From: Bacteroidaceae bacterium
GTDB lineage: Bacteria > Bacteroidota > Bacteroidia > Bacteroidales > Bacteroidaceae
Direction: 5' to 3'
Length of the DNA stretch: 35,433 bases
NCBI GenBank assembly: GCA_017445925.1
Contig: JAFSRW010000055.1
Span: forward strand, 1-35,433
This document shows positions 8,460-35,189 of this stretch, piece after piece; within the stretch, counting starts at the first letter, position 1, and every line of letters starts with the position of its first letter. A program made the position numbers and the translations under genes. The notes below the pieces were generated by a model. The model did no database searches, was not told the DNA's origin, and saw only the letters and a list, made by a program, of their open reading frames with translations.

Positions 8460-8575
8460 AAAGACCCCCTAACCCTTCGGGCCCCTCCGTCGCGAATGGG
8501 GATTCGCTCCCCTTTGTGGGGCCGCAGCCACATTCAGTGGCTACTCTAAAGACCCCAGTCGCCCTTTAGGGGGAA
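8460..8575. repeat. family 1 composite hairpin element between two surface-protein genes
   Basis: The element contains AAAGACCCC twice (near 8460 and 8549), CCCCTTTGTGGGG, AGCCACATTCAGTGGCT and CCCTTTAGGGGG, all able to form hairpins. It fills most of the gap between the genes at 6738-8459 and 8605-11649. Its core at 8483-8573 matches 12686-12776 at 86 of 91 positions without gaps. Confidence 0.85.
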
Positions 8576-11625: not shown

Positions 11626-11649
<24 letters not shown>

Positions 11650-12957
11650 CGAGGCCCCTGGGTAATAGTGCTGGAGGATTTCTTGGTACGAATAGCCTTG
11701 ATGCCCCATAACCGCAGCTCCTATCTGACACATACCAACTCCGTGCCCCCAACCTTTTCCGTTTAGGATGATGGTCTGGGGCACATTGTTTTCTATATCT
11801 TCCAAACAGACGGTGAAGGCGCTGCTAAGCAAGTGCGAGGTGCTAAGTGTCTTGCGAATCAGCAATTCCTTACCTATTATATATGTACGCGTAGAGCCTA
11901 CTATGCGGAGCCTGCTGATGTGCCCAGCGGGACCTGCCTCCAATGGCTCCAAATTCAGAATATCGCCGAACTTCATGCCTAAGTTGCGCTCTATTAGTCC
12001 TCGAAGCCCTTCTTGCGTAAAGCGGACTTGCCAACGATAGAAGTTCCGGGTTTCCAGATCGTAATCGTTCAGCACTTGCGAGAGAACCTCGCGGTCGGAA
12101 GTATTGCAGAAGGGGTCGATAACACTGCTGAGATAAGACTTGCGGATGTTCTGCCAACAGTACTGGAACTCATTGGTCTGACCGCCACAGCATTTGCCAA
12201 AGCGGGCATCGCAAATCTCGCCGTCACTCATCAGCACTTGTCCGCGCGTTTCGTTAACGGCCTGTTGGACGTTGGGATTGCAGGCAACGGTAATGCCTTG
12301 GTAGCGCTGGCAATGGTCGTCGGCACAAACATCAAAGAGGTCGTGGTCCTCGCGGTCCCACCAGCGGATGAGTTCATTGTCTGTGGCTTCCTGAGTCTCA
12401 TAGGGCTTATGAGCCTTATGGGTCTTATGAGTTAGCTGGGCTAAGAGCCAGCTGCGGCTTATCACTGCCGAGGCTTTCAGGAACTCCAACGAGCAGGTGT
12501 TTTTCATCTCGCTACTGATAACGCTGACCAGATAATCCTCCAAGGGCAGCTCGTTGATGACTACAATCTGACCCTCGTGCCAAACAAGGCGCAACGTGCC
12601 CGTAAAGACCTGCACCTGCTGTCGCTCCCAATGGAACTGCTTACCGATGGTAACACCGTAAATGCGAAAAGCCCCTCCATCCTTTCCCTCCGTCGCGAAT
12701 GGGGATCCGCTCCCCTTTGTGGGGCCGAAGCCACATTCAGTGGCTTCTCTAAAGACCCCAGTCGCCCCTTTGGGGGAGTGAGAATCTTGGGGGAGTGCTG
12801 TTATTTCATTGAATAGTTTCCCTTGCCAGAGGATGCCATCGGGTTGGGCGGTAGCTGTTTGCTCGCCCTCAACGGTTGCCCCATTAATATTATAAGGTGT
12901 ATCCAAGCGGAAACGCACCTCTCTCGCTGTAAGAATACCAACGCTTATATACTTCAT
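11626..12957 (-). CDS. SpoIID/LytB domain-containing protein
   Basis: The 443-aa product matches the SpoIID/LytB family, whose characterised members bind or cut peptidoglycan glycan strands. Family landmarks are LPLEDYLVSVISSEM and LKASAVISRSWLLAQ (central), AVNETRGQVLMSDG and GKCCGGQTNEF, and the C-terminal GKGWGHGVGMCQIGAAVMG with SYQEILQHYYPGASL. No obvious signal peptide is present. Two repeat insertions are translated: a family 1 element (12670-12778) near residues 60-96, and a 9-bp repeat (12395-12430) encoding THKTHKAHKPYETQ near residues 176-188. It starts 16 bp after the glycosyltransferase gene, so the two are co-transcribed. A cell-wall role is inferred from the family. Confidence 0.9.
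12395..12430. repeat. nonanucleotide tandem repeat, four units, in frame within SpoIID gene
   Basis: Four 9-bp units (GTCTCATAG, GGCTTATGA, GCCTTATGG, GTCTTATGA) encode a THK-rich stretch on the minus strand. A period of 9 keeps the frame whatever the copy number, unlike the 7-bp tracts. Confidence 0.75.
12670..12778. repeat. family 1 composite hairpin element, in frame within SpoIID gene
   Basis: The core at 12686-12776 is 86/91 identical to 8483-8573, which is intergenic. Here it is translated on the minus strand as a Gly/Ser/Pro-rich peptide (GATGVFREATECGFGPTKGS) without stops. Near identity between a coding and a non-coding copy implies recent duplication or movement. Confidence 0.85.
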
Positions 12958-12963
12958 GTACTC

Positions 12964-13009
12964 TCAACTGTCTCTAAACACTAAACTCTAAACTCTCAAC
13001 TTTCAAAGA
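12964..13009. repeat. heptanucleotide repeat spanning the stop codon of the glycosyltransferase gene
   Basis: Units TAAACAC, TAAACTC, TAAACTC, TCAACTT and TCAAAGA run from 12975 to 13009, with TCAACTG at 12964-12970. On the minus strand they encode the last residues (KVESLEFSV) and the TAG stop at 12974-12976, and form most of the spacer before the SpoIID gene. Confidence 0.75.
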
Positions 13010-15409
13010 TACTTCTTTCAGAATATCTGCTGCCAGCTCTGGGGTGAGTTTGCGGAAATCCTCCTCTCTTGGGGTTATGAGCAAACCGCACATATCCAAA
13101 GCTCCAGGGCTTATCAATAGTTGCTCATCGCCCTGAGCGTAATAGCAGTCGGGACGATGCTTGGCACGCGGGAAGACGAGGGTTACCACCTCCTCGTCTT
13201 GCTTCCAGCATACGATATTCATACGTGGCTCGGTCTCACCTTCGTGAAGGGGTAGTGCATTGTAGATGCGCTCAAAACTTTCCTGTGCCTCTGTTGCATC
13301 AGCTGTACTAATCACCAGAACGGGACAGGCATAGTTGGGGAGCAGGGAAATACCTTTGGCATAGGGCTTCAGGGCGGGCTCATAGATACCTTTCCAATCG
13401 CGCTCCAGAGGAGCAATACCTCTGCTCCCAGCCTGCAGGTGCATGTGGTCGGGACAGGAAGCTCCACAGATGGGCCCGTTGTAGAATACCATGTAATCGG
13501 ACATCTGTTGCGCCATCCTAAAGAGGTCTTGGAAATGTCCCTTAATGGTCTGTGGCATATGCTCGCGGGCAGGGATGGTAAAGTGCTTGGGAAGAATAGG
13601 GAAGGGGTTTACCAGCAGTTGGTATTGTTGCATTACTGGCAGGGCGTGCTGCTCGGCTGGTCGGTTGCAATCGCATAGGAAGCAAGGACGTTTCTGCAAG
13701 GCCTGCTTGCTGACATCGGCTCCCGTGCTGACCATTCGGGCAGGGTTCCACTGGGCAGTAAAAGTTGAGAGTTGAGAGTTGAGAGTTGAAAGTTCTTGTC
13801 CCTCGGCTAACACCTTTGTTTGCACACCGCTTAGGGCTTCGTATCGGGCTGCGGCTTCAGGCCAGTTTTTTTTTTCGCTCTGAAAGAAATCCTCTATCTC
13901 GGCAGGCGATGGCACTTGCTCTCTGCTTTTGTTCAGTTGCTGACGAGCCAGAATTTCCAAAGTACGCAGGTGGTCCTTATATGTATTGTTCTTGTTTATC
14001 TTTTCCTGACTCAAAGCTGCATCGCTATTGCCTTCCCAGCGTCGGCACAGATAAACCTCGTGGTACAGACGACCTATATGGTAACGCCGACTTATCATCA
14101 GCCCAAGGGCATAGTCTTCGCCATAGCTGGTGTTGGGAATCTGCAATTTCCTGAGCACAGGGGTATAGAAGGCTCGTGGAGCACCTAAGCCGTTGATACG
14201 TAAGGCGTTATTACGTCCGTTATCGGGTGTCCATTCCTTATGGTCGATGAGACCGGGAGGCAAGGTGTTCAGTTGGAAATCGCACATGCGATAGGAGCCG
14301 ATGACCATAGCTGCTTGTTGCTCGCGGAAGGCATCCACCATCTGTTGCAAGGTCTGGGGCGAGCTGTACAGGTCGTCGCTATCCAACTGTACAACGAATC
14401 GTCCTACCTGTGCATGATGAACGGCAGTATTCCAGCAACCGCCGATGCCCAAATCATCGCGTTCGGGAATGATGTGTATAAGGTGGCCCCCTCCGCCTCC
14501 CCCTTGGGGGAGTGACTTTGCTATCTGGTTTATCTTTTCAGTTGTGTCATCGGTGGAGTGATTGTCGATGACGATAACATTAAAGGAAAATGATGTCTCC
14601 TGCGTGAGAGCTGAGCGTATGGCATCCTCTATGGTACGTTCGCGGTTGCGGACGGGGATGACGACGGAAGCTTCTACGGTAAACTCACCTTCCGAGAAAT
14701 CTATATCCTGAAAGGCTTCAGGTGCTAAGTATGCGCCAATGGCTTTCAGGTGAGCCGTACAAGCCTGCTCCATCTCTATCTGACGATCGCGATTGCGTGG
14801 GTCAACATAATCAAACTGCTTCTGTCCGCTCAGTCGGGTGTCTTGCTCCACCTCGGTATACAGGAACTCATCGACATGAACAGGCAACATAGTCCTGCTG
14901 ACGAACAGACGGAAGTCGTACAAGGCAGCAAAGCGGTAGCTCACTTCCTTAGCCTGTGCCACATAATCCTTCAGGGCCGAGGTGCGAATCAGTAGCAAAG
15001 AGCCCAGCTGAAAATCATCGCGAACGGAGCCTAACTGATAGTCAATAAGGGGCGACCCTCTCCGCACCTCCCCCTCTATGGGGAGGCTTTCTTTTGTTCT
15101 CCCTATAGAGGGGGAGGTAGAGGGGGTCTTTGTATAATGGTCGGCATACAGCATCAGGGCGTTGCTGTCCTCGGCGATGGTCAGCATACGCGTCAGGGCA
15201 TAGTAGCCCAACTGTAGCGTGTCGTACTTGGTGTACAGCAGCAGATAGGGCGCAGAGGCTTTCTCTGCTATCCAACGCAGGGTTTCTATGTTGCCAGGGC
15301 CTTCTTCGCGCAGGAAGTAGATGTCCTTTACTTGCTCATCAGCTTTCAACTGTTGCAGGGTGGCGGCAACTTGCTCGTCGCTCTGCCAAGGAATAAAACA
15401 ATCAATCAT
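12974..15409 (-). CDS. glycosyltransferase (GT2) fused to HIT-like DUF4922 domain
   Basis: The start is taken at 15409 ([13 protein letters not shown]), because a promoter -7 box lies at 15415-15423 and would exclude the upstream in-frame Met. The 811-aa protein has an N-terminal GT-A-like region (about 1-230), then a clear GT2 domain (about 250-520) with [22 protein letters not shown] and the metal-binding QLDSDDLY. The C-terminal domain (about 545-800) has [22 protein letters not shown] and the histidine motif [10 protein letters not shown], which fit DUF4922, a HIT-like nucleotide-phosphorylase fold. Three repeats are translated within it: residues about 94-119 (15051-15129), about 299-308 (14484-14514) and about 540-548 (13763-13790, exactly at the GT/HIT boundary). 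A nucleotide-sugar role is inference. Confidence 0.85.
13763..13790. repeat. heptanucleotide repeat at the GT2/HIT-like domain boundary
   Basis: Four units (AGTTGAG x3, AGTTGAA on the + strand) encode [11 protein letters not shown] on the minus strand, between the glycosyltransferase and DUF4922 domains. A single-unit change would remove the HIT-like domain by frameshift. Confidence 0.9.
14484..14514. repeat. family 1 hairpin arm, in frame within glycosyltransferase
   Basis: GGCCCCCTCCG followed by the CTCCCCCTTGGGGGAG stem-loop is translated on the minus strand as [10 protein letters not shown], between DNHSTDDT and the DSDD motif. It is the single-arm form seen at 25848-25884 and 29750-29784. 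Confidence 0.75.
15051..15129. repeat. family 1 two-armed hairpin element, in frame within glycosyltransferase
   Basis: Two hairpin arms face each other: CCTCCCCCTCTATGGGGAGG near 15066-15085 and CTCCCTATAGAGGGGGAGG near 15099-15117, with outer tails GACCCTCTCC and AGAGGGGGTC. The whole 79-bp unit is an inverted repeat with a short centre. It encodes about 26 residues ([20 protein letters not shown] and onward) without a stop. Confidence 0.85.
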
Positions 15410-15414
15410 AATGT

Positions 15415-15446
15415 GCAAAAGTAGATAAAATTTTTCGCTCTGCAAA
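15415..15446 (-). promoter_or_regulatory. promoter of glycosyltransferase/SpoIID operon, near-leaderless
   Basis: On the minus strand the -7 box TACTTTTGC (15423-15415) matches TAnnTTTGC. It lies 19 bp after a perfect -33 TTTG (15446-15443). The ATG at 15409 follows the -7 G by seven bases, so transcription should start within a few bases of the start codon. Confidence 0.7.
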
Positions 15447-24507: not shown

Positions 24508-24519
24508 TTATTTGTTGTT

Positions 24520-24567
24520 CCCCGCCTCTCATTTGGGAGAGGAGGGGTTAGGGGTTGGAGAGGGGCT
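24520..24567. repeat. family 1 single-arm element between purD and membrane-protein gene
   Basis: The element reads CCCCGCCTCTCATTTGGGAG on the + strand and continues with G-rich runs to 24567. Its outer end overlaps the TAG stop codon of purD (24566-24568). The hairpin CTCTCATTTGGGAG is imperfect. Orientation relative to transcription equals that of 26284-26330 and 29858-29905. Confidence 0.85.
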
Positions 24568-26260
24568 ATAAATCTGCTCCGATGTCTCTACGGAAATATT
24601 TATCTTTAAACTGAATTTTCTGTGCCTCAGTAAAGCTCTTCTGCAGTGCTTCGGCTTTGTTTGCTCCATAGCTGCTGACGGCAATCACACGGCCACCGTT
24701 AGTAACAACCTCCTTGTCCTTCAGGGCTGTTCCTGCATGAAAGACTACACTGCCTTCTACCTTGTCGATACCGCTTATGGGATAACCTTTCTGATAGCTA
24801 CCAGGATAACCACCGCTTACCAGCATCACGCAAACAGCACTACGGTCATCAAAAACGACCTTGCGCTCTGCAAGCGTTCCGGTTGCTACGCCTTCAAAGA
24901 GGTCTACAATATCCGACTTCAGGCGAAGCATTACGGTTTCTGTTTCAGGGTCTCCCATGCGGACGTTGTATTCAATAACATAAGGTTCAGGTTCGCCAGT
25001 GGGTGTATTTGTACGGTTAATCAGGCCAAAGAAGATAAAGCCCTTGTAATCGATACCTTCTGCTGCCAGACCTTCAACTGTAGGACGGATAATGCGGTCT
25101 TCCACCTTCTTCATCCATTCTGTTGTAGCAAAAGGAACAGGACTAACGCTTCCCATGCCACCAGTATTGAGGCCCGTATCGCCTTCACCTATACGCTTGT
25201 AGTCCTTGGCTTCAGGTAGAATCTTGTAATCCTTTCCATCCGTCAGCACGAATACTGAGCATTCTATACCACTCATGAACTCTTCTATCACCACTCTGCT
25301 GCTGGCGTTACCGAACATGCCGCCCAGCATCTCTTCCAGTTCTTTCTCAGCTTCTTCAAGTGTGGGCAGAATAAGCACGCCCTTACCTGCACACAGGCCA
25401 TCGGCTTTCAGCACGTATGGAGGCTGGAGAGTTTTCAGGAAAGCTTTACCTTCAGCTAACGACTCACCCGTAAAGGTCTGATAAGCTGCCGTTGGGATAT
25501 GATAGCGCTGCATGAAGCCTTTGGCAAAATCCTTACTGCCTTCCAGTACGGCACCAGCTTTGCTGGGACCGATAACGGGAATGTTCTTCAGTTCAGCATC
25601 ATTCTTGAAATAGTCATAAATTCCTTTTACCAATGGGTCTTCAGGACCTACCACCACCATCTGTATACGGTTTCTCAAAACGAAAACCTTGATGGCTTCA
25701 AAATCATCAGCCTTTATGTTTACGTTCTCACCAACCGTTGCTGTACCAGCATTTCCTGGGGCAATATACAGTTTCTCACATTTCTCACTCTGAGCAATCT
25801 TCCAAGCTAAGGCGTGCTCACGGCCGCCACTTCCTAAAAGTAAAATAGGCCCCTCTCCCCGGCCCTCCCCCAAATGGGAGGGAGTTTTTTTTGTTTCTAT
25901 CATATCTTTTATCTTCGTTAAAACTCTATCTATATCAAATAATATTTGTTCGTTTGTAAAACGCAATAATCTATATCCTTGTTCCTTGAGTTTCTTTTCT
26001 CGAACCTCATCAAGTTTCTGCTGTTCATCTCTTTTATGGTATCCTCCATCAACCTCTATGATTAGATTGGATGTCGGAGAATAGAAATCCGCAATATAAT
26101 CCAAAATGACACATTGTCGTTTAAAAGATGTTTTTAGCCCATTTCCTTTAAGTTGTTTCCAAAGAAAAAACTCCGCGTCTGTTGGATTGTTTCTCATCCT
26201 ACGAGCATGTTCCTTAAGAAGAGGATACCAATCAGGGTTAGCCCGATGAAAATCATTCAT
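24566..26260 (-). CDS. purD: DUF559 endonuclease-like domain fused to phosphoribosylamine-glycine ligase (PurD)
   Basis: The 564-aa frame joins two unrelated parts. Residues 1-124 are a DUF559/Vsr-like domain with the nuclease core [20 protein letters not shown] (Asp58, Glu69, Asp71). Residues about 126-138 ([13 protein letters not shown]) are encoded by a family 1 repeat. From residue 139 the protein is a complete GAR synthetase of the usual 425-residue length ([20 protein letters not shown]-grasp [26 protein letters not shown]), the second step of purine synthesis. No stop and no Met lies between the parts, and the Met expected just before ILLLGSGG is absent, so PurD appears to be made only as the fusion. 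The nuclease part is bracketed by inverted repeats (25848-26330). Confidence 0.9.
25848..25884. repeat. family 1 arm, purD-side end of the DUF559 cassette
   Basis: GGCCCCTCTCCCCGG then the hairpin CCTCCCCCAAATGGGAGG. It is inverted relative to 26284-26330 and encodes the linker between DUF559 and PurD. Its outer edge lies just where the native purD start codon would be. Confidence 0.9.
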
Positions 26261-26283
26261 ATTGGTTAGTTCAGGATGCTTTC

Positions 26284-26330
26284 CCTACCTCCCATTTGGG
26301 GGAGGAGGGGTTAGGGGTTGGAGAGGGGCT
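26284..26330. repeat. family 1 arm, DPP IV-side end of the DUF559 cassette
   Basis: The hairpin CCTCCCATTTGGGGGAGG is followed by G-rich runs to AGAGGGGCT. On the minus strand it encodes the last residues (PLSNP) and TAA stop of the DPP IV gene (26311-26313). It is nearly identical to 29858-29905. Confidence 0.9.
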
Positions 26331-28320
26331 TTAGGTAATCTTCAAAATACTGTGTTATTCTTTCATGCAGATGCACACTCTTGTGCCCTGCCATATTGTG
26401 TCCTTCGCCAGGATAGACGAAGAAATCGGGCTGTGTTCCTGCCTCAGCACAAGCATTCAGGAACTGCAATGCGTGCTGGGGAACCACGGTGGGGTCATTC
26501 ATGCCGATGATAATCTGCAATTTGCCCTTCAGATTTTTGGCTTTGTTGATGAGGCTTGTCTGCTCATAACCCTCTGGATTCTGCTCAGGCGTATCCATAT
26601 AACGCTCGCCGTACATCACCTCGTACCATTTCCAATCGATAACTGGTCCGCCTGCAACACCAACCTTAAATACATCAGGATAAGTGGTCATCAGCGATGT
26701 GGTCATAAAGCCTCCAAAACTCCATCCGTGAACACCTATTCTGTCGGCATCCACATAGGGAAGGCTCTTCAGATAGTTCACGCCACTCATCTGGTCGCGC
26801 ATCTCCACCTGACCCAAATGTCGGAAGGTTGCCTGTTCGAAGTCGCGACCACGATCCTCGCTGCCTCTGTTGTCCAGGATAAACAGGATGTAACCCTTCT
26901 GTGCCATATAGGTTTCCCAACTTCGACTGGCCCAGTGCCAGGAAGCATCGATGCTGTGTGCATGCGGACCGCCATAGACGTAAACCACTGTGGGATATTT
27001 CTTGTTGGCATCGAAGTCGGCGGGCTTTACCATACGCCAGTACAGGTCGGTCACACCATCGTCGGCCTTAACACTTCCCATCTCGAAGATAGGCTGATAC
27101 CAACCTTCCCAAGGATTGGGAGCCGTCTGTAAAAGGATGCTCTTACCCGTCTTGGTATTGGTAACAGCGCAGGCACGAGGCACATCGGGCTCTTGCCAAG
27201 TATCCAGCACCCAGAGACCATCCTCGGACAACTTAGCCTGATGAACGCCTTTGCCGTTATCCAGCAAGGTACGCTTCTTGGTCTTCAGGGAAAGCGAATA
27301 GATATTACGCTGCAGGACGTTTGACTCCTTGGTAATAATGATAGCGCTCTTGGTAACAGGGCAGAAGCCCACAATGCTCTTTACCACCCAATTGCCGGAA
27401 GTCAACTGTTCCTGTTTCAGGGTGTTTACGTCCATCAGATAGAGGTGTGTAAAGCCATCCTTCCAGCTCCAGAAGATGAACTTGTTGCTGTCCCAAGGCA
27501 GGAAGGTAATGGGGTGAAGTGGTTCTACGTATTTATCGCTTGTCTCAGTATAGAGTGTCTTTATCTTATTGCCTGTGGCCACATCATAGGCATCTAATGT
27601 GCAATGGTTCTGGTCGCGGTTCAGCTCATACAGGTACAATGTCTTGTCGTCTGGTCCCCAAGCGATATTGGTGAAATAGCGGTCGGTAGGGTCGCCAACG
27701 TTCAGGTAGATGGTTTTCTCTGTATCTAAATCAAAGATGCCGATGGTTACCTGATGTGAAGTCATTCCTGCCATAGGATACTTGTCGGGCTCCAACTCCG
27801 CTTCACGCTTAAAGGTATTCACCTGCGGATAGTCTGCTACCATGCTCTGGTCCATGCGGTAGAAAGCTAACTTCTTTCCGTTGTTACTCCAGAAAGTCCC
27901 TTTGTAGATGCCGAACTCATCGCGGTGAACACTCTGGCCGTACACAATCTCGCGAGAGCCATCCTTAGAGAGTTGCACATCGTGCCCGTCAGCGTATCTT
28001 ACCCACAGGTTATTGTCGCGCAGAAAAGCAGCGGCATTAGATGCCTTGCACCACTCCAGCAAACCTCTGGGATTGGGCTTGTTCTGCTTCTCAGGCTCCT
28101 GATAATCAGAGGTATTGCCCGTTGATGGGTCCACCTGTACTGTCTTGCCTTCGTCCTTGAAGATAAGCTTTCCGTCCTGCCAATTATAATCCCAACGTTG
28201 TGGAACAGATACTTTGTAGTTCTTGCCGCCAAAGTTCAGTTCCTCTAATGTAAACAGTTTCTGTGCCATTGCTTGCGTTGCCAACATGAGCAAAGAGGCT
28301 AATATCAGTTTAATCTTCAT
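26311..28320 (-). CDS. S9 family dipeptidyl peptidase IV-type serine peptidase
   Basis: The start is the ATG at 28320 (MKIKLILASLLMLATQAMAQ), which gives a normal signal peptide; in-frame Met codons further upstream lie inside the methyltransferase gene. The product is 669 aa. Residues about 25-400 form the beta-propeller (DPP IV N-terminal) domain. The C-terminal alpha/beta-hydrolase domain has the nucleophile motif GVHGWSFGGF, the acid in IIGMNDPTVVP and the histidine in YPGEGHNMAGH. Such periplasmic enzymes release Xaa-Pro dipeptides during peptide use. Its start overlaps the methyltransferase stop by 11 bp. Its last codons and stop come from a family 1 repeat. Confidence 0.93.
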   Translation of the reverse strand: MKIKLILASLLMLATQAMAQKLFTLEELNFGGKNYKVSVPQRWDYNWQDGKLIFKDEGKTVQVDPSTGNTSDYQEPEKQNKPNPRGLLEWCKASNAAAFLRDNNLWVRYADGHDVQLSKDGSREIVYGQSVHRDEFGIYKGTFWSNNGKKLAFYRMDQSMVADYPQVNTFKREAELEPDKYPMAGMTSHQVTIGIFDLDTEKTIYLNVGDPTDRYFTNIAWGPDDKTLYLYELNRDQNHCTLDAYDVATGNKIKTLYTETSDKYVEPLHPITFLPWDSNKFIFWSWKDGFTHLYLMDVNTLKQEQLTSGNWVVKSIVGFCPVTKSAIIITKESNVLQRNIYSLSLKTKKRTLLDNGKGVHQAKLSEDGLWVLDTWQEPDVPRACAVTNTKTGKSILLQTAPNPWEGWYQPIFEMGSVKADDGVTDLYWRMVKPADFDANKKYPTVVYVYGGPHAHSIDASWHWASRSWETYMAQKGYILFILDNRGSEDRGRDFEQATFRHLGQVEMRDQMSGVNYLKSLPYVDADRIGVHGWSFGGFMTTSLMTTYPDVFKVGVAGGPVIDWKWYEVMYGERYMDTPEQNPEGYEQTSLINKAKNLKGKLQIIIGMNDPTVVPQHALQFLNACAEAGTQPDFFVYPGEGHNMAGHKSVHLHERITQYFEDYLKPLSNP

Positions 28321-29803
28321 CGTTATTGTCGAAATATCTTTTTCCGAATTTGTTATTGCCGCCCTTGTTGCGGTCGAAAGATTTCTTGCCTCCGCGACCG
28401 AAGTTCTTGCCGCCTTCCTTGCGGAAATCACGGCGGTCGCCCTTACCCTTCTTAAAGTCGCGTCTGTCTTCCCATTCGTCTCTTTTGGGTTTGCGCATTC
28501 TCTCCTTGGGGTTCTCCTCCAGTTTATCTTTGAAGTCGCGGTGCTGCTTAAATCGTTTGCGTTCAGCCATCATACGGCGTTCTTGGGCAGTCTTTATGTC
28601 GCCGCCTCCAGCACGCATATCGTTGAACTTGCCGCTGAAGATCTGGTATTTGCGCAGTTCGCACTCCAGGCTTCCATTGAACAGCGGCGTACGCAGCGAG
28701 GGCTTCAGGCCGATCTGGTCGAAACATTCCTCGCGATAACTCAGTATCCAGGCCTCGTTGTCTATAAACTGATGCTTCAGACGTTCGCCAATCATCTTGT
28801 AAAGTCCCAGGAGGTCGGGAGCCGAGATGCGCTCTCCGTAGGGTGGGTTGGTGATGATAACGCTCTTTTCCTTGGGCTGTGTAAAGTTGGCAAAGTCCTG
28901 CTGCTGAACGGTTATCTCCTTGCTCAGGCCGGCAGCCTTTACATTGGTGGTAGCGATAGCAACGGCAGGCCTACTGATATCATAGCCGTAGATGTGATGC
29001 TCGAAGGGATGCTCCTGACTATCGTCCTCATAAACCTTATCGAAAAGTTCCTGGTCGAAGTCAGGCCATTTCTCAAAGGCATATTCCTTTCTGTACACAC
29101 CTGGGGCAATGCCTCTTGCTATCAGCGCTGCCTCTATGGCTATGGTGCCGCTTCCGCACATAGGGTCTATAAGGTCGCATTGTCCGTTCCAACCCGTCAG
29201 CATGATGATACCGGCTGCCAATACCTCGTTCAAGGGAGCTTCTACGCTCTCCTGACGATAACCTCTGCGATGAAGGCTTTCACCTGAACTGTCCAACGAG
29301 AGGGTACAATCATACTCAGCTACATGGATGTGCAACTGAAGGTCAGGATTGTTGATACGGATGTTGGGGCGGTTGCCTGTCTTCTCGCGGAACTGGTCCA
29401 CGATGGCATCCTTCACCTTATAGGCCACAAACTTGCTGTGGCGAAACTCGTTACTGAACACCACGCTGTCAACGGCAAAGGTTGTTTCGTTACTCAGATA
29501 CGTAGTCCAGTCAATCTCCTTGATGGCATCATACACCTCATCGGCGCTGGTTGCGCGAAAGTGCTTGATGGGTTTCAGTATCTTTATGGCAGTACGCAAC
29601 TGGAAGTTGGCACGATACATCATTTCCTTGTCGCCGGTAAAGCTTACCATGCGTCTGCCTAATTGTATATTGTTGGCTCCCAGGTCAGTAAGTTCCTTTG
29701 CCAACACTTCTTCAAGACCCTGAAAGGTCTTTGCAATCATTTCAAATGAGGCCCCTCCCCCTTGCCCCTCCCAAAGGCGGGGAGATTCGTTAGTAGTCTC
29801 CAT
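28310..29803 (-). CDS. THUMP-domain RNA methyltransferase (RlmL/TrmN-like) with basic tail
   Basis: The 497-aa product has an N-terminal THUMP region (about 25-170), then a class I SAM methyltransferase domain (about 175-390). The latter includes LIDPMCGSGTIAIEAALIAR (SAM binding) and the catalytic IITNPPYGERI, as in guanine-N2 methyltransferases of rRNA or tRNA. The last 80 or so residues are Lys/Arg/Gly-rich (DRRDFRKEGGKNFGRGGKK), an RNA-binding-like tail. The first 19-21 residues (METTNESPRLWEGQGGGAS) come from a mini-element (29750-29905); conserved sequence begins FEMIAKTFQGLEEVLA. The Met at 29740 is an alternative start. It overlaps the DPP IV gene by 11 bp. Confidence 0.9.
   Translation of the reverse strand: METTNESPRLWEGQGGGASFEMIAKTFQGLEEVLAKELTDLGANNIQLGRRMVSFTGDKEMMYRANFQLRTAIKILKPIKHFRATSADEVYDAIKEIDWTTYLSNETTFAVDSVVFSNEFRHSKFVAYKVKDAIVDQFREKTGNRPNIRINNPDLQLHIHVAEYDCTLSLDSSGESLHRRGYRQESVEAPLNEVLAAGIIMLTGWNGQCDLIDPMCGSGTIAIEAALIARGIAPGVYRKEYAFEKWPDFDQELFDKVYEDDSQEHPFEHHIYGYDISRPAVAIATTNVKAAGLSKEITVQQQDFANFTQPKEKSVIITNPPYGERISAPDLLGLYKMIGERLKHQFIDNEAWILSYREECFDQIGLKPSLRTPLFNGSLECELRKYQIFSGKFNDMRAGGGDIKTAQERRMMAERKRFKQHRDFKDKLEENPKERMRKPKRDEWEDRRDFKKGKGDRRDFRKEGGKNFGRGGKKSFDRNKGGNNKFGKRYFDNNDED
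29750..29784. repeat. family 1 arm encoding the methyltransferase N-terminus
   Basis: GGCCCCTCCCCCTTGCCCCT then CCCAAAGGCGGGGAG. It is inverted relative to 29858-29905. On the minus strand it encodes SPRLWEGQGGGA just before the conserved methyltransferase sequence. Confidence 0.85.
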
Positions 29804-29857
29804 TTATTATTTCTTTTTTTGAGATTTGCTTTTATTAGTTTTCTTTTCCATATCTTT

Positions 29858-29905
29858 CCCCACCTCCCATTTGGGGGAGGAGGGGTTAGGAGTTGGAGAG
29901 GGGCT
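29858..29905. repeat. family 1 arm at the serine acetyltransferase stop
   Basis: CCCCACCTCCCATTTGGGGG and following G-rich runs, nearly identical to 26284-26330. Its outer end overlaps the TAG stop codon of cysE, exactly as 24520-24567 does at purD. Confidence 0.88.
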
Positions 29906-32813: not shown

Positions 32814-35189
32814 ATGAAGAAACTATTATTCTCCTTAATGACAATACTTTTGCCGTTGGTAGCAGGTGCATATACTGGTGAGGCTGTAATTGATGGTATC
32901 AAATACTCTATCAACACAAACACGCAAACCGCGAAAGTGGTAAAAGACAACTATTCAGGTGAAATCATTATCCCTGAAACCGTTGACTATGAAGGTGTTG
33001 CTTGTAGTGTAACCACAATCGCGAGTTCAGCTTTCAGCGGATGTAAAGCTTTGATCTCAGTTCAGATACCCAACAGTGTCATTACCATCGAAACGTGGGC
33101 GTTTTATCAGTGCAGTGAATTGTCGTCAGTGACTATTGGTGACAATGTCACTTCTATAGCCTATAGTGCTTTCTCTGGCTGCAAGAGCATAACTTCCATA
33201 AGGATTCCCGATAGCGTGACATCCATTGGTACCGACGTCTTCTCCGATTGCAAGGGATTAATCTCTGTAGTTATTGGTCACGGCCTGACCTCTATCAGTC
33301 AAGGAACCTTCAAGAATTGTACTAGTCTGGTTTCAGTCGACATTCCGGATAATGTCGAGAAAATTGGGAATTCTGCCTTTTATGGCTGTTCTGCCTTGTC
33401 TTCCATATCAATGGGAAATGGTATAACCAGCATAGGTGGTTCAGCTTTCAGCGGGTGCCTTGGTTTAACTTCAATCTTAATTCCTAATAGTGTCACTACC
33501 ATCGGAACATTTGCTTTTCTAGGTTGTGATGCGTTAACTACTTTAATTATTGGTAGTGGAGTTGAATCCATAGGTACTTATGCTTTTTCTCAATGTAAGG
33601 CTTTAACAAAGGTGTTTTGCTATTCAAACAATGTGCCTGCAACAAGTAATAATGCTTTTTCTAATTCAAACATAAGCAAAGCCACACTTTATGTTCTTGA
33701 AGATTCTATTGATGCTTATAAGGCTTCATCGTCATGGAACGGATTTAAGGAATACCTTCCTGTGCCGAAAGTGACATATATGGTGGATGATGTTATCTTT
33801 AGGGAAGAAATTGTCGTGGTGACGACTCCCTTCATCCCTATAGTAGAGCCGGAGAAGGAGGGCTACACCTTCAGTGGCTGGATAGATGTTCCAAAAACTA
33901 TGCCTATGAACGATGTAGTAATAAAAGGTTATTTCACCATCAATACATATATTCTTACATATCTCGTTGATAATAAGGTGTACAAGGAATATGAGGTGGT
34001 ATATGATTCCGACATAGAGCCAGAGGCAGAGCCTGTCAAGGAGGGTCACACATTCTCTGGATGGAGCGAGATACCAGCGAAGATGCCTGCAAAGAATGTA
34101 ATAGTAACAGGCACATTTACCATTAACAGTTACATGCTTACATATATGGTAGACGGTGAGGTCTATAAGGAATGCGAGGTTGTATATGACTCTGCTATAG
34201 AGCCAGAGGCAGAACCTGTCAAGGAGGGCCACACATTCTCTGGATGGAGCGAGATACCAGTGAAGATGCCTGCAAAGGATGTGACAGTTACGGGTTCATT
34301 TACCATTAACAGTTATACGCTTACATACATTCTTAATGGCGAAGTCTATAAGCAATATAAACATGTATACGGATCTGTTATAGAAGCTGAGGCTGACCCT
34401 GTCAAGGAAGGTTATACATTCTCTGGATGGGGTGATATTCCTGCCACAATGCCTGCCAAAGATGTATCAATAACAGGAACACTTACCATCAATAAATACA
34501 AGCTCACTTATTTTGTGGATTCTGAAGAATACAAATCATACGAGATAGAATATGGTGCTGTCATTACACCTGAGGTTGAGCCCGAGAAGAAGGGATACAC
34601 TTTCTCCGGTTGGAGTTATATCCCCAACACAATGCCTGCTGAGGACGTAACGGTAATAGGATCATTTGAAGCTAATGAGTATCACCTGACCTACATTGTT
34701 GACGGTGACATATACAAGGAATATGATGTAAAGTATGATACTGCCATCACACCTGAGACAGAGCCGACGAAAGAGGGATACACTTTCTCTGGTTGGAGTT
34801 ATATACCAAGCAAGATGCCTGCGGAAGATGTGACTGTCATAGGAAAGTTCCGTATCAATAGCTATACGGTAACATATATGCTTGATGGTGAAGTATATAC
34901 CACAGAAACATTGGAATACGGAGCGAAGATTGTACCACCTGTTATTCCAGGTTTGGAAGACTACACTATTTGGGAAGATGTACCAGAAACAATGCCTGCT
35001 AAAGACATTATAATCTACGGTAAAGCAAAAGAGATAATTGATGGCCTTGATAGTGAAGAACGAAGAGTGAAGAATAAAGAAGACATTATGATTTATGACC
35101 TCAACGGACATCGTCTCGCCTCTCCTCAAAAGGGCATCAACATTATCCGCGTGGGTAACGGTATTACAAAAAAGGTGCTGATTAAGTAA
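32814..35189 (+). CDS. secreted BspA-type leucine-rich and InlB-type repeat protein
   Basis: The 791-aa protein has a signal peptide (residues 1-19, ending VAGA-Y). BspA-like LRR_5 repeats (about 55-300) have recurring SAFSGCKALISVQIPNSV-type units. Seven tandem Listeria-Bacteroides (InlB-type) repeats follow (about 320-745), each with a LTYxVDGExYK, EGYTFSGWxxIPxxMPAxDV pattern. The C-terminal tail has IMIYDLNGHRL and KKVLIK, as in sorting-type domains. A heptamer tract (35052-35079) encodes the linker before that tail. BspA proteins are surface adhesins that bind host or bacterial partners. The near-identical repeats near 34000-34300 could recombine. A terminator follows 24 bp after the stop. 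Confidence 0.92.
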   Translation: MKKLLFSLMTILLPLVAGAYTGEAVIDGIKYSINTNTQTAKVVKDNYSGEIIIPETVDYEGVACSVTTIASSAFSGCKALISVQIPNSVITIETWAFYQCSELSSVTIGDNVTSIAYSAFSGCKSITSIRIPDSVTSIGTDVFSDCKGLISVVIGHGLTSISQGTFKNCTSLVSVDIPDNVEKIGNSAFYGCSALSSISMGNGITSIGGSAFSGCLGLTSILIPNSVTTIGTFAFLGCDALTTLIIGSGVESIGTYAFSQCKALTKVFCYSNNVPATSNNAFSNSNISKATLYVLEDSIDAYKASSSWNGFKEYLPVPKVTYMVDDVIFREEIVVVTTPFIPIVEPEKEGYTFSGWIDVPKTMPMNDVVIKGYFTINTYILTYLVDNKVYKEYEVVYDSDIEPEAEPVKEGHTFSGWSEIPAKMPAKNVIVTGTFTINSYMLTYMVDGEVYKECEVVYDSAIEPEAEPVKEGHTFSGWSEIPVKMPAKDVTVTGSFTINSYTLTYILNGEVYKQYKHVYGSVIEAEADPVKEGYTFSGWGDIPATMPAKDVSITGTLTINKYKLTYFVDSEEYKSYEIEYGAVITPEVEPEKKGYTFSGWSYIPNTMPAEDVTVIGSFEANEYHLTYIVDGDIYKEYDVKYDTAITPETEPTKEGYTFSGWSYIPSKMPAEDVTVIGKFRINSYTVTYMLDGEVYTTETLEYGAKIVPPVIPGLEDYTIWEDVPETMPAKDIIIYGKAKEIIDGLDSEERRVKNKEDIMIYDLNGHRLASPQKGINIIRVGNGITKKVLIK
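35052..35079. repeat. heptanucleotide repeat before BspA-like sorting tail
   Basis: Four 7-bp units (AGTGAAG, AACGAAG, AGTGAAG, AATAAAG) encode SEERRVKNKE just before the IMIYDLNGH motif. The position matches the tracts before the tails of the CotH and short secreted proteins. Confidence 0.75.

Follow-up and report, generated by a model that had tools for sequence, protein, structure and literature searches.

A hairpin-flanked DUF559 nuclease gene at the start of purD points to an overlooked kind of mobile DNA

Introduction

How does a nuclease gene come to lie between two inverted hairpins at the start of a housekeeping gene, and in one reading frame with it? This question is raised by a 35,433-nucleotide stretch from a Bacteroidaceae bacterium (assembly GCA_017445925.1, contig JAFSRW010000055.1), hereafter the window, in which a short cassette with a DUF559 domain sits at the junction between a peptidase gene and purD. 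A first-pass annotation of the letters alone had taken the cassette for a selfish nuclease element, possibly a Bacteroidetes counterpart of the repetitive extragenic palindromes (REPs) and their REP-associated tyrosine transposases (RAYTs), and had proposed that a fusion to the nuclease is the only form in which PurD can be made. In our analysis the cassette probably belongs to a family of mobile elements of about half a kilobase, each with a single gene for a Vsr-type PD-(D/E)xK nuclease (DUF559) between inverted hairpin ends. The genome that holds the window is a draft of 3.3 Mb in 100 contigs and is 83.7% complete.

Results

The element at purD

A single open reading frame (ORF) of 564 amino acids on the minus strand matches DUF559 (PF04480) at residues 16-121 with an E-value of 9.6e-28 and 96.7 bits, the Pfam cut-off being 20.6, and PurD (TIGR00877) at residues 139-563, where the model is entered at position 3 (coordinates are collected in Table 1). 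The residues Asp58, Glu69 and Asp71, which had been singled out as a Vsr-like core, are D43, E54 and D56 of our alignment A1 and lie in columns that are invariant in the 24 DUF559 cores aligned, so that both the profile match and the conserved columns bear out this identification. The fold is nearest to a DUF559-type structure (3hrl), the homing endonuclease I-Bth0305I (3r3p) and Vsr, and both the Vsr/I-Bth0305I-like PD-(D/E)xK fold and the catalytic acidic residues are present. A search with PADLOC gave only weak partial matches to restriction-type models, on which ground a defence system was set aside. Likewise an intron or other known RNA was discarded, as neither the window nor 5 other loci had an Rfam match at the gathering threshold.

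The nuclease is indeed flanked by inverted copies of one hairpin, with arms of 21 nt (25864-25884 and 26285-26305) that are 95% complementary and lie 400 nt apart. Allowing up to 3 mismatches, the hairpin CCTCCCATTTGGGGGAGG has 5 copies in the window versus 0.01 expected, and at most 1 was seen in 100 shuffles. In the whole genome a loose form of the pattern, also with up to 3 mismatches, has 214 and 205 matches on the two strands, and the reversed control pattern has 38 and 41. Compared to shuffles, the copies in the window have weak hairpin energies as single strands (z of -0.2, -1.4 and -2.7), probably due to a sequence rich in C and G runs, and the structure is therefore argued from the repeats and not from energy. 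On the other side of the element the peptidase ORF runs into the outer end and finds its stop (26313-26311) there.

As had been noted, no stop intervenes between DUF559 and PurD and the native M-K start of PurD is absent. The further statement that the join contains no internal methionine did not stand, since the ATG at 25903-25901 on the minus strand gives a PurD of 445 residues and matches the purD start in the close relatives L035 and L037. At two more purD loci, L045 and L048, a stop separates DUF559 from purD and purD begins at an ATG supplied by the element. The idea that PurD is made only as a fusion was rejected on the basis of these relatives, and as L045 and L048 keep the stop, the fusion in the window looks secondary.

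Recurrence of the hairpin-flanked nuclease

The genome of the window carries three DUF559 genes, all three between inverted hairpins 400-420 nt apart whose stems and loops differ. DUF559 is present in 49 of the 151 genomes of the same family. For this family set we took all 88 DUF559 matches of at least 85 bits, excluding 20 weaker ones, and tested the 87 that remain without L123, which has no left flank. The hairpin score was the best inverted match between the 200 nt to the left and the 200 nt to the right of the domain, and the control was taken 450 nt further out. The score exceeds 13, the control maximum, in 78 of 87 loci and in none of the 86 shifted controls (medians 26 versus 10). When left ends are matched to the right ends of other elements the median score is 11 and the 99th percentile 28, and the own partner end is the best of 31 in 44 of the 87 elements. 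The association of DUF559 with hairpins is thus strong well beyond the window. A scan of many phyla in one collection kept 80 loci of at least 570, of which 4 had too short flanks; 57 of the 76 scored lie above 19, the top score among 72 controls, and 65 exceed 13. Judged by record titles, most of these loci are from outside Bacteroidota, and the designation as a Bacteroidetes counterpart is too narrow given loci from Proteobacteria, Chloroflexi, Nitrospirae, Gastranaerophilales and Rickettsiales.

The number of hairpins per genome has a median of 33 with a strong DUF559 match (n=34) versus 2 without (n=27). The ratio dN/dS is 0.07-0.28 in 11 of 12 nuclease pairs, which were chosen as close pairs and include three that share members, and by this comparison purifying selection appears to act on the DUF559 nuclease. 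Another deep clade of DUF559, with 13 of the 88 nucleases (L088, L106, L127, L137, L139-L146 and L148) with support of 100/100, has flanks that look different and less regular.

Capture of neighbouring starts and stops

A start was scored as captured when an ATG, GTG or TTG, lying within the final 30 nt of the domain or between the domain and the right hairpin, opens a frame that continues at least 240 nt past the hairpin, in-gene elements included. Among the 78 loci with a hairpin score above 13 and enough flank, a frame opened at or after the nuclease passes the right hairpin in this way in 55, and in the mirror control at the left end in 8; at a threshold of 60 nt the numbers are 57 versus 32. 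The captured genes include purD, coaD, leuC and gmk. Their proteins typically have a polar stretch first, then the translated hairpin (for example TPLPTREGQGGGS, SPLGGTRGG or PLEGEVPVGRRGS), and then the housekeeping body minus its native first residues. The three elements of the window's genome precede purD, coaD and leuC, each with a captured start. A looser rule, which accepts any frame of at least 240 nt whose start is no more than about 120 nt from the domain end and makes the hairpin optional, finds a frame in 73 of 88 loci and 38 groups of similar proteins. The largest are argC (11), a ferredoxin-oxidoreductase type (6), leuC (6), one unnamed group (5) and gmk (4), the names being given by inspection except where Pfam or NCBIfam was run. 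At the upstream end, 41 of 77 elements begin inside an open frame of at least 120 codons that is stopped by or in the element or runs into it. With hairpins around the nuclease at most family and wider loci, apparent purifying selection on the nuclease and host genes that start in the element, the earlier description of a selfish, hairpin-flanked nuclease element is supported.

Unit boundaries and mobility

The element ends read AG[AC]C...G[GT]CT. By a simple pattern, AG[ACT]C termini are found at both ends in 35 of the 78 loci, with lengths of 465-605 bp and a median of 514 bp. Target-site duplication is not evident in these 35 loci, in which two-base matches between the flanks number 6 versus 2.3 expected and matches of 3-9 bases number 0 or 1. 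The tags known from REPs are not enriched at the 77 hairpin-flanked loci examined for them: GTAG occurs in both ends of 2 and CGTC of none, with 1 and 1 in the controls. The element of the window has GTAG twice, once at the foot of the outer hairpin (nt 43 of the element), and the foot of the inner hairpin is without it.

The clearest evidence that the unit moves comes from one pair, L109 and L118, the single case in which a closely similar unit was found at non-homologous sites. The two lie 2.5 kb apart on the same contig and are alike over exactly 508 bp, from AGACCC to GGGTC, within unrelated flanks. They are 87% identical over the domain, and the gene that follows differs between them, being leuC in one case and a leuA-like gene in the other (by inspection). 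The region that holds them (genome G081, contig C39, 47500-52327) has three DUF559 elements within 5 kb, L067, L118 and L109, before leuB, the leuA-like gene and leuC.

Filled, empty and scarred sites

Orthologous sites are found in filled, empty and scarred states; the labels scar and leader used here were assigned by eye. A nuclease lies upstream of purD in 3 of 60 loci of the genus (one locus per genome with a match, 61 genomes searched), and 30 of the 60 loci span only 121-144 nt around the purD start. The remaining 57 related loci are without the nuclease, so the relatives do not all share the fusion. With the nuclease of the window, those of L045 and L048 share 71-73% identity, and the five further top matches shown out of the 88 share at most 58%; on this ground the three purD elements were taken as orthologous. 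L035, L037, L049 and L053 have what by eye is a hairpin-like leader without a nuclease, and L039, L046 and L052 have what may be left of the outer end, within the peptidase gene. The element start ATGA(T/C)AGAAACAAA is retained in L035 and L037, and the junction of L036 is clean. A tree groups the window with L035 (98/96) and L036 with L037 (92/89), which fits an ancestral insertion with later loss and also fits a hairpin leader that was later entered by the nuclease.

For coaD, 2 of 30 loci read are filled (in the window's genome and in G051) and four more (L358, L359, L361 and L371) have only a hairpin-like leader. For leuC, 4 of 30 loci read are filled and two or three others have only the leader. 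Besides the copy of the window's genome, the nucleases at the filled leuC loci are 57, 53 and 48% identical to the best of seven queries, and in a tree of the 88 nucleases those before leuC fall on at least three branches, which suggests that elements arrived repeatedly at this one gene start. In the sister genome G051 the leuC site is empty and reads TTTAGATAAGATGGGAAAGACT-TTATTCGAC, with a stop, a spacer, ATG GGA AAG ACT and no hairpin, and the filled site of the window's genome reads TTTAGGTAGACCC ... GGGTCT-TTATTTGAC. The element replaces the stop, the spacer, the start and the next three codons; a TAG stop is completed by the AG with which the element begins, and the bases at its far end join codon 5. 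In G045 the native leuC start is kept behind TAAGACCCCTTCTGTAACT, which resembles a remnant of the left terminus, and if it is one, then some insertions leave the native start in place. In every filled purD (3), coaD (2) and leuC (4) locus the hairpin leader forms the beginning of the host protein.

In-frame insertion inside genes

Within the family, DUF559 is found in frame inside SpoIID-like proteins (L071, L089), MiaB (L094), a DegT/LegC-type aminotransferase (L138) and an epimerase-type protein (L131), and also in a helicase (L122) in which the host match is on one side only. In a sample of the phylum DUF559 is present in 222 of 395 genomes, and among 30 loci read by eye the nuclease is in frame in MetH (5), LeuS (3) and HsdR-like proteins (3). 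In the wider scan at least 100 codons are open on both sides in 25 of 80 loci, a fraction that is not an unbiased estimate since the query alignment A2 included in-gene copies. Ten of these 25 were scanned for domains, and host domains lie on both sides of DUF559 in 7 and mainly on the C-terminal side in 3 (L276, L296 and L323). The seven two-sided hosts are a class I tRNA synthetase (ValS by inspection) and Mfd, both from one Rickettsiales genome, PriA (twice), a HrpA-type helicase (twice, by inspection) and MetH. L314 (PriA, Alphaproteobacteria) and L319 (Mfd, Rickettsiales) have composite inverted repeats of about 90-100 nt with several hairpins around the in-frame DUF559.

Among 30 MiaB loci read, one has DUF559, and several (L215, L217, L220) have hairpin-only inserts in the same loop. 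In addition to an internal DUF559 insert, the MiaB of G137 (L210, 433-480) has a C-terminus, KGETSPQPSPKERERA, that resembles a further translated hairpin. MetH has matches in 94 of 120 genomes, mostly with open frames of about 890-930 residues; 2 of 30 loci read are filled, both at one and the same linker, and an unread third locus has an open frame of 1070 residues. The inserts in 20 proteins, scanned at an E-value of 1e-5, matched only DUF559 and MTES_1575 and no Hint or intein splicing domain. An AlphaFold2 model of MiaB with its insert had a mean pLDDT of 66 and was not used.

Other features of the window

Table 1. Position of the element and of associated features in the window.
Feature	Position	Strand	Remarks
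Whole element	25848..26330	-	483 bp; terminus AGCCCCTCTCC towards the peptidase gene, terminus GGAGAGGGGCC towards purD
Outer end (peptidase side)	26281..26330		terminus, CCCCTAACCCC linker and hairpin; contains the stop codon of the upstream gene
Inner end (purD side)	25848..25884		hairpin and terminus, translated within the purD leader
DUF559 (PF04480) PD-(D/E)xK nuclease domain	25898..26215	-	D58, E69, D71 conserved
DUF559-PurD fused open frame	24566..26260	-	564 aa
Internal ATG	25901..25903	-	equivalent to the purD start codon of relatives L035 and L037
PurD with element-derived leader, as read from the internal ATG	24566..25903	-	445 aa
Upstream prolyl-oligopeptidase/DPP-type peptidase gene	26311..28431	-	final codons and stop in the element (KPLSNP*)
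Solo hairpin repeat of the same class	24518..24570		overlaps the purD stop codon

Hairpins of the same class are seen elsewhere in the window. An ORF of 823 residues (12974-15445, minus strand) has two of them in frame, at 15067-15086 and 14496-14512, without a nuclease. A hairpin-type leader (METTNESPRLWEGQGGGASF), within 29745-29880, opens an RNA-methyltransferase-like ORF (29803-28310, minus strand), and a solo hairpin lies at 29863-29880; this is possibly another captured start from which the nuclease is gone. Among intergenic loci of the same genome, L004, L010, L017 and L019 are short nuclease-less composites of two inverted hairpins with a common middle (TGCCCA..CCCCTGCTAGCAGTTCCCTCCCATTTGGGGG), which resemble miniature inverted-repeat transposable elements (MITEs). 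A 92-nt repeat with 95% identity is found at 12686-12777, within a SpoIID-like ORF (11626-12957, minus strand), and at 8483-8574, between ORFs, and pieces of it are also nested in the hairpin pairs L015 and L017. Five tandem units of 183 nt at 33845-34759 (62-70% like the first), in the ORF of a 791-residue repeat protein (32814-35189, plus strand), look like ordinary surface-protein repeats.

Discussion

Comparison to known systems helps to place these elements. In Rickettsia, palindromes in ORFs keep the frame and lie in solvent-exposed regions of the protein (PMC3767692). Such Rickettsia palindromic elements (RPEs) and those of Wolbachia share with the DUF559 elements the in-frame palindrome in an ORF, which we found in related elements and in the fused frame of the window. 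However, RPEs are repeats of 100-150 bp, described in the passages cited without mention of an enzyme, whereas palindromes of the DUF559 elements bracket a nuclease gene and many give start or stop codons. REP/RAYT systems (REPtrons, REPINs) have in common with our elements dispersed hairpins, inverted pairs and one gene bracketed by similar hairpins, and the literature also records REPs located within genes as well as a class of REPs that has no transposase dedicated to it (PMC3733652). The RAYT, though, is an HUH Y1 transposase and its REPs carry GTAG tags according to the same paper, while the DUF559 elements have a PD-(D/E)xK nuclease (PF04480, not PF01797), AG[AC]C termini, translated ends and no enrichment of GTAG or CGTC at the hairpin foot. 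Inteins are also in-frame nuclease inserts in conserved genes, with patchy distribution and recurrent sites, but they contain a splicing domain, while the DUF559 inserts scanned were without one and lie in variable loops and linkers (MiaB, MetH). I-Bth0305I (3r3p) was deposited as a mobile intron protein, whereas the DUF559 loci searched yielded no intron RNA family and their inserts keep the frame. Insertion sequence (IS) elements and MITEs share terminal inverted repeats around one gene and shorter, nuclease-less derivatives; the DUF559 element differs in that its sole gene is PF04480 and no clear target-site duplication was detected. Some IS families make no target-site duplication. No family that we considered agrees on all points: REPtrons differ in enzyme and tags, inteins in the splicing domain and introns in the RNA, and for classical IS elements the comparison depends on whether the nuclease serves as the transposase. 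Our literature search, which covered few subscription papers, found no description of such DUF559-hairpin elements in titles or the openings of abstracts, and the recurrence of this arrangement in many bacteria points to an overlooked kind of mobile DNA.

The explanation that we prefer, and regard as probable, is that the cassette is a member of a family of mobile elements with this anatomy. In a broader and more novel reading, DUF559 genes would form a pan-bacterial class of mobile elements with a Vsr-type mobilising nuclease, translatable hairpin ends and persistence by capture, through stop and start codons given to neighbours in the operon or through a place in frame within essential proteins; the same enzyme would also feed large dispersed hairpin families that are without a known transposase, be they solo, paired or in frame. 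We give this broader reading a probability of roughly 0.55. In the preferred explanation the nuclease would recognise the hairpin ends, both its own and those of the dispersed solo and paired hairpins, and would cut the element or its target, after which host repair or replication may complete the insertion. The step in which the DUF559 nuclease moves the hairpins is one that we lean towards, given that the nuclease mostly lies between cognate hairpins. With translatable ends the element would be able to lodge within essential genes, or between them, and leave them functional. Clean loss would then be selected against because the host gene depends on the start codon or frame of the element, and the nuclease would tend to decay first and leave a translated hairpin scar. 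In the window the stop of the nuclease would have been lost secondarily, which fused the nuclease to PurD and left the old internal ATG in place.

Several results weigh against this explanation. Nuclease cleavage and element movement are inferred and are not observed events. L109/L118 is a single moved pair, and the nuclease of L118 has one stop. The three purD insertions are, judging from their nucleases, orthologous, and so old and inherited and not recent jumps. Neither the 35 loci with both termini nor, by eye, L109/L118 revealed a target-site duplication or a fixed target sequence. The hairpin score is 13 or less in 9 of 87 family loci and in 11 of 76 wider loci. The antisense control for upstream entry is not low, with 16 of 77 at 120 codons and 28 versus 44 at 80 codons. 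Some genomes without a strong DUF559 match are rich in hairpins (G018 with 123, G026 and G027 with 35 each, G050 with 27 and G058 with 23), in assemblies that are incomplete. Lastly, a kinship-free comparison of the correlation between DUF559 and hairpins had only 2 independent pairs and was uninformative.

The strongest rival has the nuclease as a homing parasite of REPs, in which older hairpin pairs (REPIN- or MITE-like) spread by other means, DUF559 cuts those pairs that lack it and repair copies the nuclease in, so that the nuclease lives off the repeats and is not what transports the unit as a whole. Paired hairpins without a nuclease, as this would need, are present in the window's genome (L004, L010, L018, L019, L020) and in frame in MiaB, the nuclease-free purD leader of L035 and L037 could be a state before invasion, and, leaving aside the DUF559-type 3hrl, the solved structure closest to the nuclease belongs to a mobile-intron homing endonuclease. 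We nevertheless regard it as unlikely, as the two ends of an element often match each other best, L109 and L118 are alike over the entire 508 bp with both ends included, and the empty leuC site of G051 is without a hairpin that could have been invaded. Less probable still is a domesticated regulatory leader, whose hairpin controls translation or mRNA stability of biosynthetic operons and whose DUF559 is kept for host repair or defence. It would agree with targets that are often biosynthetic (argC, leuC, leuB, purD and ribD, by inspection), with the low dN/dS and the weak PADLOC matches, and with the link of VsrA, a DUF559 protein, to DNA damage in Caulobacter (PMC12907096). It is hard to reconcile with the sparse occupancy of purD (3/60), coaD (2/30 read) and leuC (4/30 read), with elements inside MiaB, MetH, LeuS and Mfd, and with the absence of an Rfam family match in the window and 5 other loci.

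That the hairpins are ordinary REPs mobilised by a Y1 transposase (RAYT- or IS200-type) with DUF559 as a passenger seems very improbable to us. The architecture does resemble the REP-gene-REP order of REPtrons (PMC3733652), and PF01797 has a match at an E-value of 0.001 in 22 of 61 genomes of the genus, 17 of them above the Pfam cut-off. However, no PF01797 (Y1_Tnp) match was found in the window's genome, draft as it is and 83.7% complete, and for this reason a RAYT was rejected as its mobiliser. PF01797 matches of at least 62 bits occur in only 6 of the 61 genomes and hairpins are no commoner there (median 11.5 versus 13). An artefact of chance palindromes or assembly error has a negligible chance of being the explanation, even for a draft in 100 contigs, when the window holds five hairpins where 0.01 are expected, when the identical anatomy is found in many other genomes and when the element is conserved at the orthologous purD loci of two of them.

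If the proposed explanation is right, it would give a role to a widespread domain of unknown function and a candidate enzyme to REP-like hairpins that have no transposase. It would also account for stray loops, leaders and whole in-frame nuclease domains in housekeeping proteins. For annotation this would mean that captured genes, by their start sites and domain architectures, can easily be mistaken for functional fusions. More generally, by becoming the start codon of an essential gene, selfish DNA would have a route to being hard to lose that does without toxins.

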